Part shown: positions 14,500 through 22,023 of the stretch, piece by piece | Layout: every line of letters begins with the position of its first letter | How positions within the stretch are numbered: position 1 is the first letter of the stretch | Assembly (NCBI RefSeq): GCF_000407165.1 | Contig: NZ_KE136479.1 | Location: 507,464-571,463 of the forward strand | Reading direction: 5' to 3' | Source: Enterococcus haemoperoxidus ATCC BAA-382 | Lineage (GTDB): Bacteria > Bacillota > Bacilli > Lactobacillales > Enterococcaceae | DNA length: 64,000 nt | Position numbers and translations under genes: made by a program | The notes under the pieces: generated by a model | Told to the model about the DNA's origin: nothing | The model's input: only the letters and a program-made list of their open reading frames with translations | Database searches by the model: none

Positions 14500-14777
14500 T
14501 AACAACAAATGAATAACAGTCCGTTGAAGAGAAGAGTAAATTTGGACGTGCTTTTGTAGAGAGTCTCGGTTGGTGAAAAGAGATAAGCGCATAAGAGTTG
14601 AAGATGGTCTCAGGAGGATAAGCTGTTGATATGTAAGCAGCTTCGGGAAAGCATCCGTTATCAAAGCGACAAGTTATAAGACTTGGTCTAAGAAAAGTAA
14701 TCATGATTACTTTAAAACAAAGGTGGTACCGCGATTATTCGCCCTTTACTAGCAGCAGCTGGTAGAGGGCTATTTTT
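14500..14777 (+). ncRNA. T-box riboswitch 1, methionine specifier
   Basis: An AGAGAGTCTCGG stem I start and GGTTGGTGAAA distal motif are followed by the specifier context GAAG-ATG-G, with ATG at 14604-14606. The T-box AGGTGGTACCGCG lies at 14721-14733. A terminator (GCCCTTTACTAG against CTGGTAGAGGGC, 14741-14770) and T-run close it. Uncharged tRNA-Met should favour antitermination. Confidence 0.9.
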
Positions 14778-14845
14778 ATGTTCATCAAGATTAAAAGTAT
14801 AAGATTAACGGAGAAAATATTGATTCTTCAAACAACTAAATAATT

Positions 14846-15128
14846 AAAGCAATGAGATGGAAAGTACAGATAAGACGATATCTAACAGAGAGCTTGGGTA
14901 GCTGAAAACAAGCGGTAAACGAAATCTGGAAAATGGCCATTGAGCAGCGCTTCGAGTGAGAAATTCATAAGACAGCGACGGATGCACCCGTTAATGTGCT
15001 AGAGTATAATCGATCATTGATCGACGTACTTGATGAGGATATCTATGTGAGTGGATATCAAATAGAGGTGGTAGCACGCAAAAGCGTCCTCAAATGTATA
15101 ATTTTATACATTTGAGGACGCTTTTTTC
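14846..15128 (+). ncRNA. T-box riboswitch 2, methionine specifier
   Basis: A second complete T-box follows on the same transcript: AGAGAGCTTGGG start, specifier context GAAA-ATG-G with ATG at 14933-14935, and T-box AGAGGTGGTAGCACGC at 15064-15079, which departs from the usual GGTACCGCG. A strong terminator runs 15084-15121 (GCGTCCTCAAATGTATA against its complement) with a T-run. The 5' boundary is approximate. Confidence 0.88.
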
Positions 15129-18656: not shown

Positions 18657-19853
18657 ATGACTATAGTAACGAAACAATCGATCAAAGAAGAAATTCAGCA
18701 AAATGCAGATGAAGTGATCGCTTTAAGACGTCATTTCCATCAATATCCGGAAGCTAGTTTAAAGGAATTTGAAACAATCAAACGAATCAAAGAAGAACTG
18801 AACAAGCTGTCTATTCCATTCGAAGAAGTAGGAGAAACTGGAGTACTTGGAACAATCGTCGGAGGAAAAGCTGGTAAAACAATCATTTTAAGAGCTGATA
18901 TTGATGCTTTAGAATTAGAAGATGCAACAGGGAAAAAATACCAATCTAAAAATCCTGGGTTAAATCATGCATGTGGTCATGATGGTCACGCTGCAGCATT
19001 GTTAGGCGCCGCAAAAGTTTTGAAAAATCATAAAGACGAGTTTGCTGGAACAATTAAATTAGCCTTTCAACCAGCAGAAGAAATTGGTGCTGGCGCTTGT
19101 CAATTTGTCGATGGTGGTTTTGTAGATAATATCGATCAAGTTTTTGGTATCCATTTAGATTCAAGTGTTCCTGTGGGGAAATTAGTCGCGACTAAAGGAG
19201 CCACAAATGCTTCTTGTGATATATTTAAAATTGAAGTTGAAGGCTTAAGCAGTCATGTGGCGCAACCAAATGTTGGACGGGATGCTGTATTAGCAGCGGC
19301 AAGTATTGTCGTAGAACTACAGAAAATAGCTGCAAGAGAAGTTAGTCCGTTAGATCCTATTGTCGTTGGAATCGGCGTACTTGATGCTGGAACTAGATAT
19401 AATATTGTGGCCAACCATGCTAAAATAGAAGGAACAGTCCGAGCATTTAGTCATGAGACACGTGCATTTGTTTTAAAACGTGTGGAAGAGATTGCAAATC
19501 AAATTGCGGAAGCCCATCGAACAAAAATTTCGTCTTTTACTATTCATGATGCAGCAGGACCTTTGATCAACGATGATGCTGCAACTGAATTAGCACAAAA
19601 AGTAGCAGCAGGAATAGTTGGAAATGAGAATGTCGTTACAGATCATACTAAGAGTTTAGGTGCAGATGATTTTGCTGATTTTTTACTCAAAGCACCTGGC
19701 GTTTATGGTCGAGTAGGAACACGAAATTTAGACAATCCGGATACACAATATGGCCATCATCATGAAAAATTTGATATCGATGAAGCTGGATTGGCGTTAG
19801 CAACAGAATTTCATGTGCGTTATGCACTGACGTATTTAAATTCAATCGGATAG
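18657..19853 (+). CDS. M20-family amidohydrolase (N-acyl amino acid hydrolase)
   Basis: The 398-residue M20D peptidase-family enzyme has the metal-binding HACGHDGH motif and PAEEIGAGA, plus a dimerisation lid domain (GLSSHVAQPNVGRDAV) and a later DHTKSLGADDFADFL. Relatives remove acyl groups from amino acids (aminoacylase, hippurate hydrolase, N-acetyl-diaminopimelate deacetylase). It starts 15 bp after metQ2 with AGAGGAGG and ends the methionine T-box operon. Its place suggests a substrate that releases methionine or another sulphur amino acid, such as an N-acyl-methionine; this is inference. Confidence 0.88.
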   Translation: MTIVTKQSIKEEIQQNADEVIALRRHFHQYPEASLKEFETIKRIKEELNKLSIPFEEVGETGVLGTIVGGKAGKTIILRADIDALELEDATGKKYQSKNPGLNHACGHDGHAAALLGAAKVLKNHKDEFAGTIKLAFQPAEEIGAGACQFVDGGFVDNIDQVFGIHLDSSVPVGKLVATKGATNASCDIFKIEVEGLSSHVAQPNVGRDAVLAAASIVVELQKIAAREVSPLDPIVVGIGVLDAGTRYNIVANHAKIEGTVRAFSHETRAFVLKRVEEIANQIAEAHRTKISSFTIHDAAGPLINDDAATELAQKVAAGIVGNENVVTDHTKSLGADDFADFLLKAPGVYGRVGTRNLDNPDTQYGHHHEKFDIDEAGLALATEFHVRYALTYLNSIG

Positions 19854-19997: not shown

Positions 19998-20025
19998 TTG
20001 CTTTTCAAAACAATTATGTTAAACT
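19998..20025 (+). promoter_or_regulatory. Promoter of the ABC-F leader transcript
   Basis: TTGCTT (19998-20003) and TAAACT (20020-20025) are 16 bp apart. The start would be near 20032, just ahead of the leader ORF ribosome site. Confidence 0.6.
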
Positions 20026-20052
20026 ATTTTTTGTAAAGAAAGGTGATTAAGA

Positions 20053-20133
20053 ATGTTTTTTCTTTCAGATAAATTTGTGAAAAGAAGTAGCTCCCGACAA
20101 ATGAATGTGATGAAGCATTGTTGTGGAGCCTAA
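20053..20133 (+). CDS. 26-codon leader peptide upstream of the ABC-F gene
   Basis: A short ORF starts at ATG 20053, six bases after AGGTGA, and stops at TAA 20131. The peptide starts MFFLSDKFVKRSSS and ends MKHCCGA. Its last third overlaps the 5' arm of a stem (20109-20119). Leaders of this sort before antibiotic-resistance ABC-F genes sense stalled ribosomes and relieve transcription termination. The ribosome site, the position and the overlap with alternative structures support it. No matching described leader comes to mind. Confidence 0.7.
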   Translation: MFFLSDKFVKRSSSRQMNVMKHCCGA

Positions 20134-20325
20134 TAAAATGAATGCTTCATCGTCTAAATAAATACTGAATTTTTGAGACTAAGTTGTAGTCTTATTTAGT
20201 GTTGCTTTTGACGATGATCTTGATTTTTATAGTGCTAATCAAAGGACAACGTGTTTCGTGCGTTGTCCTTTGTTGATACTGACAAGGGATAGATAGGTGG
20301 GGCCTATTCGATCGCTTGTTTTTTT
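20109..20325 (+). promoter_or_regulatory. Candidate transcription attenuator of the ABC-F gene
   Basis: Several pairings exist. Stem A pairs 20109-20119 with 20141-20151 (GATGAAGCATT). Stem B pairs 20148-20154 with 20210-20216 (CATCGTC) and excludes the end of A; inside it CTAAATAA pairs with TTATTTAG. Stem C pairs 20240-20251 with 20261-20272 (CAAAGGACAACG). An alternative pairs CCTTTGT (20267-20273) with ACAAGGG (20282-20288), excluding both C and the base of a terminator-like hairpin (about 20283-20318, with CAAG/CTTG and ATAGG/CCTAT) that ends in T7 (20319-20325). This is the layout of a leader-peptide attenuator. Confidence 0.65.
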
Positions 20326-20484
20326 GATTTGATAAATAAACGACCTTTCAGCTAAACGTACGAAATTGATGTTTAAGCAGCTTTAACTATTGAATAGATA
20401 AAACAGATATTTACTATGATTTACAACGAATGAACAGCAAAGAGATCAAAAAAATCTTTGTGAAAACGGAAAAGAGGAAAAATT

Positions 20485-22023
20485 ATGAATCTATTAACAA
20501 TCGAACACTTAACACAACGATTTGGTGAAAAAATTCTTTATGAAGACGCATCGCTTCGCGTCAATAGAGGAGACCATATGGGGTTAACAGGTCAAAATGG
20601 TGTAGGAAAATCAACCTTAGTCAAGATTTTAACAGGTGAAATTTTGGCAGACGATGGAACGATCGTATGGCAAAATAATACAAAAATTGGTTACTTGGAT
20701 CAATATGTTGAAGTCATTGGGAACAGTACAATCAATGAATTTCTACATCAAGCATACAAACCGTTATACGAAATCGAAAGCAAAATCAATGAACTATACA
20801 CTGAATATGGTGAAACTGGTGCAGAGAAATTATTAGAACGAGCTGGGAATTTACAAACTCAGCTAGATGAAAGTGATTTTTATCAAATCGATACAATCAT
20901 CAATGATCTTGCCAATGGTCTGGGAATTGAAGCAATTGGATTAGACCGTCCAATGAATGAATTAAGTGGTGGGCAACGATCTAAAGTTATTTTAGCGAAG
21001 CTACTCTTAGAAGAACCAGATGTTTTACTATTAGATGAACCGACAAATTATTTAGATGATACTCATATTCAGTGGCTAATCAATTATTTAAATGGTTTTG
21101 ATGGAACCTTTATTTTGGTTTCTCATGATTTTCATTTTTTAAATGCTGTGACAAATTGCATCTGTGACATTGAATTTGGCAAATTAACGAAATATACAGG
21201 AAATGTGGAAAAATCATTTGCTCAAAAAGAACAAAACAAAGAAAGCTATTTAAAACAATACCATGCCCAACAAGCAAAAATAGAAAAGGCGGAGGCTTAT
21301 ATTCGAAAATACAAAGCAGGGAATCGTGCAACCATGGCGAAAAGTCGTCAAAAGCAATTAGACCGAGTGGAGCGTATGGCACCACCAGGTAGTTTAGTAA
21401 AACCACAAATTCAGTTTCCCTATCAACCGATCGTGGCAAGTTTAGCATTGATCACAGATGAATTAGTGATTGGGTATGCTGAACCTTTATTAGCACCGAT
21501 CAATCTATCTGTTCACAGTGGAGAAAAAGTGGCAATCAAGGGTTTTAATGGGATTGGTAAATCAACCTTGATCAAAACATTAACGGGTAAAATCAACCCA
21601 ATCAGTGGTGAATACCAATATCCATCAAATACAAGGGTTGCTTACTTCTCACAAGATTTGACGTGGGAAAATGATTATTTGACCCCTTTAGCTTATTTAA
21701 GTGATCGATTTCCTAAAAAAACAGTGAAAGAAATTCGCACATACTTAGCAAAATGTGGACTACCAGATAAGTTAGTAAATCAGCAATTGCGTTTATTAAG
21801 TGGCGGAGAGCAGACGAAAGTAAAACTAAGTGAATTGACGATGGATACAAGTAACATTATTTTCTTAGATGAACCAACGAATCATATCGATGCAGCAGCA
21901 AAAGAGAGCTTACGTCAAGCAATTCAACAATTTCAGGGAACGGTCATTATTGTTTCGCATGAAGAAGAATTTTATACAGATATTACAGATCGTGTAATCA
22001 ATATCGAAGAATTGATACAATGA
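20485..22023 (+). CDS. ABC-F family ATPase, YfmM-like
   Basis: The 512-residue protein has two ATPase domains and no membrane segment: Walker A GQNGVGKST (about 37-45), signature LSGGQRSK and Walker B VLLLDEPTNYLD, then Walker A GFNGIGKST, signature LSGGEQTK and Walker B IIFLDEPTNHID. A charged linker lies between (near GNRATMAKSRQKQ). Such proteins bind the ribosomal E site and act as translation factors or eject antibiotics. By memory it is closest to Bacillus YfmM rather than to Lsa, OptrA or PoxtA. A 450-nt leader with its own short ORF and terminator-like structure suggests it is induced by ribosome stalling. Resistance has not been shown by sequence alone. Confidence 0.88.
   Translation: MNLLTIEHLTQRFGEKILYEDASLRVNRGDHMGLTGQNGVGKSTLVKILTGEILADDGTIVWQNNTKIGYLDQYVEVIGNSTINEFLHQAYKPLYEIESKINELYTEYGETGAEKLLERAGNLQTQLDESDFYQIDTIINDLANGLGIEAIGLDRPMNELSGGQRSKVILAKLLLEEPDVLLLDEPTNYLDDTHIQWLINYLNGFDGTFILVSHDFHFLNAVTNCICDIEFGKLTKYTGNVEKSFAQKEQNKESYLKQYHAQQAKIEKAEAYIRKYKAGNRATMAKSRQKQLDRVERMAPPGSLVKPQIQFPYQPIVASLALITDELVIGYAEPLLAPINLSVHSGEKVAIKGFNGIGKSTLIKTLTGKINPISGEYQYPSNTRVAYFSQDLTWENDYLTPLAYLSDRFPKKTVKEIRTYLAKCGLPDKLVNQQLRLLSGGEQTKVKLSELTMDTSNIIFLDEPTNHIDAAAKESLRQAIQQFQGTVIIVSHEEEFYTDITDRVINIEELIQ

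Follow-up and report, generated by a model that had tools for sequence, protein, structure and literature searches.

The leader region ahead of the ABC-F gene

The window analysed here, a stretch of 64,000 nucleotides (nt) from Enterococcus haemoperoxidus ATCC BAA-382, carries a match to the uup RNA family of Rfam (RF03060) in the leader of an ABC-F gene, between gene 18657-19853, which we take to encode an amidohydrolase-type peptidase, and the ABC-F gene 20485-22023. An earlier note on this DNA, made from the letters and their open reading frames (ORFs), had proposed a 26-codon leader ORF behind a good ribosome site, mutually exclusive stems and a stalled-ribosome attenuator, with no described leader known for this kind of gene. 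Both the ribosome site and the ORF are present. The element itself is not undescribed, because uup RNA, for which Weinberg 2017 is reportedly the source description, is already catalogued, while the statement holds in so far as no known function is attached to it. No function of uup RNA was found in the literature searched, and the original description of the motif may already mention a leader ORF; the consulted part of a Clostridioides difficile review treats it as a catalogued motif of no known function (PMC11477304). The window resembles the Rfam family in its score above gathering, its hairpin and its location before an ABC-F gene, whereas the model comprises 48 positions, namely the P1 hairpin and ten preceding bases, and the full leader ORF and the S1/S2, B/C, pause and terminator elements lie outside it. 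The features are as follows.

18657-19853: upstream gene, 5' of the leader
19998-20025 (+): candidate promoter TTGCTT-N16-TAAACT with TG before the -10 box, read from the sequence
20039-20047 (+): Shine-Dalgarno (SD) sequence of the leader, AAAGGTGAT, scored as a 7-nt match
20053 (ATG) to 20131-20133 (stop) (+): leader ORF, 26 codons, MFFLSDKFVKRSSSRQMNVMKHCCGA, conserved in relatives
20071-20085 (+): basic motif K-F-V-K-R, codons 7-11, directly 5' of P1
20081-20129 (+): uup RNA match, 46.6 bits (gathering 36.8)
20090-20129 (+): P1 hairpin, putative anti-antiterminator, inside the uup RNA match
from 20109 (+): switch strand GAUGAAGCAUUGU, 3' half of P1
20130-20138 (+): S1, 5' strand of the predicted outer antiterminator helix, CUAAUAAAA, placed by cognate S1:S2 pairing
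20146-20151 (+): B element UUCAUC; C and the GAUGAA of the P1 loop are both complementary to it
20175-20197 (+): pause-like hairpin, then TTATTT (20192-20197), from the TTNTTT survey
20210-20217 (+): C element GACGAUGA, partner of B in minimum-energy folds
20225-20232 (+): S2, 3' strand of the predicted outer antiterminator helix, UUUUAUAG, placed by pairing with S1
20244-20268 (+): T1 hairpin; the switch strand is predicted to pair with its 5' arm, and the T2 5' arm is a possible partner for its 3' arm
20283-20325 (+): T2, predicted intrinsic terminator, hairpin 20283-20318 and T7 tract 20319-20325, -13.9 kcal/mol
20485-22023 (+): ABC-F ATPase, 512 residues, the putatively regulated gene; 369.6 bits with NF000355 (cut-off 380)

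P1 ends 355 nt and T2 159 nt before the ABC-F start, and T2 was found where the earlier note had placed a terminator-like hairpin. P1 spans 20090-20129 and so takes in roughly half of the ORF, codon 13 onwards, and not the last third as had been estimated.

A conserved leader that appears to be translated

Loci with the uup core numbered 119, of which 99 are sequence-distinct; L070 is a truncated copy of L009, so there is at least one double count. A leader was called where an SD match of at least 5 nt and an ATG or GTG opened a frame running into P1, with the start 20-48 nt before P1. This arrangement was found in 90 of the 99 distinct loci but in only 258 of 4950 shuffled upstream regions (5.2%), and with one representative per distinct leader 68/77 passed, the locus without a call included. 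The distance from start to P1 is 40 nt in 33 loci, 37 nt in 23 and 28 nt in 17, and the automatically picked leaders run from 13 to 48 codons. Single-base codon differences between distinct leaders were compared in the leader frame and in frames +1 and +2. The synonymous fraction in the leader frame was 0.42 against an expected 0.23 in the 40-nt class (34 sequences; 0.20 and 0.11 in frames +1 and +2), 0.73 against 0.23 in the paralogue type (6 sequences; 0.16 and 0.32, expected 0.23 and 0.19), 0.41 against 0.26 in the window type (8 sequences; 0.31 and 0.08, expected 0.25 and 0.19) and 0.40 against 0.20 in a second group (9 sequences; 0.31 and 0.25, expected 0.25 and 0.26). The excess is thus seen in all four sets, with most weight coming from the 40-nt class, and a crude count of differences per codon position gave no clear bias. 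Start and SD placement together with the synonymous bias support translation of the leader. A translated upstream ORF (uORF) with its own SD that overlaps an anti-antiterminator is a mark of ARE ABC-F attenuators, and the sequence evidence points to such an arrangement here.

The element accompanies its gene closely within the genus. Among 22 genomes, 34 genes resemble that of the window (E <= 1e-100), comprising 17 orthologues (76-100% identity, the window's own included) and 17 paralogues (42-46%); uup matches occur in 18 of these genomes, at 32 places. All orthologues and 16/17 paralogues have the uup element upstream, 33/34 in total: 32 with a match at E <= 0.001 and the paralogue L146 with a complete leader below threshold (27.6 bits). 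The remaining gene, a paralogue in genome G002 (L143), lacks the leader, though a T1-like hairpin and its T run remain, and the three genomes with neither gene at that E-value have no uup match. The absence of leader and stems from close relatives, which the earlier note had named as the observation that would count against it, was therefore not what we found.

Further afield, under stricter filters, uup matches occur in 36/105 genomes of the family and in 4/398 of an even draw across the phylum, own genome included. A pattern scan of named genomes yielded 70 stretches from Enterococcus, Vagococcus, Isobaculum, Paenibacillus, Cohnella, Cytobacillus and other Bacillaceae, Shimazuella and several Clostridia, as well as Holdemania, a Shewanella and four metagenome-assembled genomes, one labelled Planctomycetota. 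IMG/VR gave one stretch; searches of plasmids with three leaders as query and of phages with one leader returned no match. One stretch of uup RNA and GNAT gene is shared by a Peptostreptococcus genome and an IMG/VR contig (L099, L119).

Competing hairpins and the predicted switch

The region 20032-20484, whose folding the earlier note had proposed as a check, folds more stably than 100 of 100 shuffles (z -4.95). Mutually exclusive pairings, as had been suggested, do exist. The 3' half of P1 has two possible partners, the P1 and T1 5' arms; B can bind either C or the P1-loop GAUGAA; and the 3' arm of T1 can close its own hairpin or join the T2 5' arm. T1, ahead of the T7 terminator, is additional to the structures noted earlier. 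An 11-bp pairing, GAUGAAGCAUU:AAUGCUUCAUC, fared less evenly, being complete in only 5 of 18 window-type loci, whereas all 18 retain the 7-bp core GAUGAAG:CUUCAUC.

Several of these elements recur across the loci. UUCAUC or UCAUCG lies within 50 nt of P1 in 97/97 loci, compared with 97 of 4900 base-shuffled windows, and GAUGAA:UUCAUC is conserved as a predicted pseudoknot or alternative helix; B is paired with C at a mean probability of 0.72, falling below 0.5 in 10/96 loci. TTNTTT (N not T) between B and T1 is present in 64 of 94 distinct regions against 274/940 shuffles, 60 of the 64 being TTATTT, and is preceded by a hairpin in 58/94 regions against 67/940 shuffles. At least one hairpin with a T-rich stretch follows within 330 nt of P1 in all 97 loci long enough, a count that has no shuffled control. 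T1 was assigned in 96/99 loci, the remainder being L034 and two truncated stretches, and T1 and T2 together in 60 loci, 50 of them distinct. At the window locus a simple terminator scan with a loop limit of 8 found none.

The switch was modelled at equilibrium on a nascent transcript that extended as far as the T1 5' arm, in which 12 nt of the P1 5' arm were either masked or free, and pairs between (P1 3' half + S1) and (S2 + T1 5' arm) were counted. Masking raised the predicted antiterminator from 5.5 to 15.5 pairs on average, with at least 6 pairs in 93/96 loci, and at least 10 pairs formed in 80/84 distinct loci, compared with 109/504 when the T1 side and 102/504 when the P1 side was shuffled. 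The masked folds of the window contain both antiterminator pairings. S1:S2 differs in sequence between clades (UUAAUC:GAUUAA; UACAAU:AUUGUA; AUAUACA:UGUAUAU; CUA-UAAAA:UUUUAUAG in the window), and the cognate pairing is stronger than the median non-cognate one in 60/84 loci. Between the 3' arm of T1 and the 5' arm of T2, cognate pairings reach -15.0 kcal/mol against -10.8 kcal/mol for non-cognate ones, the own partner being better than the median foreign one in 44/50. The shuffled controls support the antiterminator, and an intrinsic terminator with a competing antiterminator, another mark of ARE ABC-F attenuators, is found in silico.

Proposed attenuation and the genes behind the leader

From the leader, its codon constraint, the conserved elements and their complementarity, all of which are given by the sequence, we infer that this region is very probably a ribosome-controlled transcription attenuator, in which an inducer would stall the ribosome and the order of folding would decide on read-through. 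The stalled-ribosome attenuator suggested earlier thus gains support from start and SD placement, synonymous bias and the shuffled antiterminator controls. When the leader is translated freely, P1 would re-form behind the ribosome and T1 would fold, after which T2 with its T7 tract would fold and transcription would stop near 20325. A ribosome stalled at about codons 10-12, in the basic stretch, would instead cover the 5' arm of P1; the released P1 3' half and S1 would pair with S2 and the T1 5' arm as the antiterminator, leaving the T1 3' arm free to capture the T2 5' arm. Both T1 and T2 would be prevented, and the ABC-F gene would therefore be transcribed. The pause site between B and C probably buys time for the ribosome, and a ribosome-targeting antibiotic is the likeliest inducer.

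A number of observations weigh against this proposal. The search pattern fixed GCTCC, ACA, GATGAA, TTGT and GGAGC by construction in the pattern-scan loci, and the related species among the loci are not independent. Nine of the 99 loci failed the leader test; the synonymous signal of the window type is weak in comparison with frame +1, where 0.31 also exceeds its expectation of 0.25, as does frame +2 of the paralogue type (0.32 over 0.19), whose leader also lacks the basic motif. TTNTTT is missing in 30/94 regions, the U tract of the window's T1 is weak, and the preference of S1:S2 for its own partner is limited to the 60/84 loci given above. Even with P1 free, 35/96 loci already reach at least 6 counted pairs, some of them perhaps S1:S2 pairs that can coexist with P1; in that state the antiterminator even wins in some Paenibacillus loci (L054, L077, L081 and L107). 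The T1:T2 hand-over reaches at least 5 pairs in only 29/50 loci when masked and in 12/50 when free, and RNAalifold on 29 aligned sequences recovered the near-invariant GAUGA:UCAUC pairing alone, with no covariation.

The closest parallel is vmlR of Bacillus subtilis, in which, according to the consulted part of the source, a uORF lies inside an anti-antiterminator and is followed by a pause hairpin with TTATTT, an antiterminator and a terminator, the TTATTT motif acting with NusG (PMC9226507). These components are shared by the uup locus, and their logic has been demonstrated for vmlR; the vmlR uORF, however, encodes the tripeptide MIN, whereas the leader here has 26 codons and uup leaders often carry a basic motif. 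Moreover, uup loci often have a second terminator with a possible hand-over, and they also precede MATE, MFS and other genes. cplR of C. difficile is likewise an ABC-F gene under uORF-dependent attenuation, although its uORF reads MR[I/M] and its terminator stem sequesters the SD, and the consulted portion of that paper mentions no uup hairpin (PMC10201436). With the tlrB, msrD and erm leaders the predicted uup leaders would share elongation-stage stalling on the leader peptide, the tlrB motif being RYR in the descriptions consulted. We infer that the element is a new variant of ribosome-mediated attenuation, and leader and switch together give the orphan motif uup RNA a likely function.

Peptide motifs and downstream genes bear on what the leader may sense. 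In the 40-nt class, codon 8 is Lys in 27/30 distinct peptides and codon 12 is Lys or Arg in 23/30; the window type carries K-F-V-K-R at codons 7-11, and the second group (L033-L045) mostly reads YYFKF[IV]RK or close to it. A basic stretch, [KRH]-phi-[VIT]-[RK]-[KRED], stands directly before P1 in 42/78 ABC-F loci (31/55 distinct). C-I-[EKR] precedes P1 in 8/9 MATE loci, some of which are near-copies (L031/L032, L046/L063), whereas C-I occurs in 0/78 ABC-F loci. A rough motif classing of the genes behind the 99 loci gave 78 ABC-F, seven MATE, four MFS, one ABC-F start followed by MFS, one Vat-like, one methyltransferase, one GNAT and six unclassed; of the last, L049 and L103 are MATE-like by their first residues (and are included in the nine MATE loci above), the genes of L070 and L105 extend past the end of the stretch, and no class could be given to those of L101 and L108. 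Library scans confirmed MATE in 3/3 tested, and matched the GNAT gene and the methyltransferase behind the Shewanella copy to their families; for three MFS genes tested the best drug-named models were Mef, with scores below cut-offs, and the Vat-like fragment of 40 residues had a family match in NCBIfam only, below the cut-off. The genes behind uup leaders are thus of resistance type or could be.

This range of genes also bears on the idea that ribosomes slow at the basic motif whenever ABC-F or general translation capacity is insufficient, so that ABC-F would tune itself without any drug. Many ABC-F leaders do have a basic stretch, and the ABC-F protein YkpA/YbiT aids translation of basic stretches in B. 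subtilis, as stated in the part of the report consulted (PMC11381351), but for the MATE, Mef-like, Vat-like and GNAT products behind the same element no action on stalled ribosomes is expected, and we regard such a homeostatic sensor as improbable. The proposed drug-responsive attenuator may, more tentatively, represent a modular family found mainly in Bacillota, in which a switch of P1, T1 and often T2 with a two-step hand-over is combined with gene-matched arrest motifs, basic [KR]-phi-[VIT]-[RK]-[KRE] before many ABC-F genes and C-I-[EKR] before MATE, the peptide setting the inducing drug class. Irrespective of this modular reading, the attenuation proposal makes of an orphan Rfam motif a leader that can be put to the test and that probably senses drugs, present in Enterococcus, Paenibacillus, Bacillaceae and several Clostridia. 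Any gene that follows such a leader would be a candidate for inducible resistance, among them MATE and ABC-F genes so far unstudied, and the leader peptides could be paired with drugs as possible new stalling sequences.

A ligand-binding riboswitch, through which the ORF would run incidentally, appears quite improbable to us. It draws on the same C. difficile review, which in its consulted part sets uup RNA, with several highly conserved nucleotides, beside riboswitches, yet reports no evidence of riboswitch function (PMC11477304), and on the conservation of GAUGAA in the P1 loop among covariance-model matches; complementarity to T1 and B, however, accounts for the conserved nucleotides of the P1 3' half, and an ORF with an SD at fixed spacing and a synonymous bias is not what an incidental frame would lead one to expect. 

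The SD-supported frame enters P1 as xGC TCC in 82 of the 99 loci, as GCT in 13 (12 from the second group, the thirteenth, L048, being a wrong automatic pick) and in the third frame in three, with none in one. P1 cores measure 36-44 nt; among the loci listed, indels past ACAA shift the frame of the conserved GAUGAAGCAUUGU, and the resulting C-termini differ (...TMKRCTELNQEA, ...NDETLSGA, ...MKHCCGA). The same P1 RNA is read in different frames, and its 3' half is therefore kept as RNA and not as peptide; GAUGAAGCAUUGU is partly fixed by the search pattern, yet is also seen in covariance-model matches. Reading this 3' half as a conserved peptide (...YDEALYGA) was dropped, as the SD-supported frames differ and indels shift the frame. 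The GNAT loci L099 and L119 have an SD-supported leader in a frame unlike that of other loci.

Mainly translational control or mRNA stability, with hairpins acting after transcription, is hardly credible given the hairpin with a T-rich stretch behind P1 in every locus long enough (again with no shuffled control), even though the attenuation of cplR and of vmlR has both a translational and a transcriptional component in the parts of the sources consulted (PMC10201436, PMC9226507).

The window's ABC-F product does not reach the 380-bit threshold of NF000355, a model of ribosomal-protection-like ABC-F proteins, and neither does its paralogue (377 bits), while the relatives L095 (401.7 bits) and L118 (411.5 bits) pass it. 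The genome has six ABC-F matches. Its two uup matches stand ahead of the window gene and of the paralogue nearest to it, with which it shares 45% identity. This paralogous ABC-F gene has its own uup leader (L002, 1482-1553), with a peptide beginning MYVLYISTLSSLQ... and without the basic motif. The best promoter box ends 22-34 nt 5' of the leader start in 81/98 loci, a count that has no shuffled control; at the window locus the automatic pick was a different, weaker box, and the box at 19998-20025 is absent from the list of a separate feature scan.

Further Rfam matches, close to the leader or in two of the relatives (mir-548 and other microRNAs, snR67, GibS, trpB, Xoo2, sRNA162), were below threshold and taken as chance. 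Elsewhere, uup leaders stand ahead of Mef-like efflux genes at L055, L066, L081, L102 and L114; at L055 the start of an ABC-F gene separates the leader from the MFS gene, as though the leader had been put to a second use. In L065, a record named Shewanella salipaludis, a gammaproteobacterium, a uup leader and a terminator-like hairpin are followed by the methyltransferase gene. The window also contains a glmS ribozyme (543-691, 91 bits) and two tandem T-box leaders (14515-14749, 99.1 bits; 14843-15094, 111.5 bits), behind which lies what is presumably a methionine-type ABC transporter operon.
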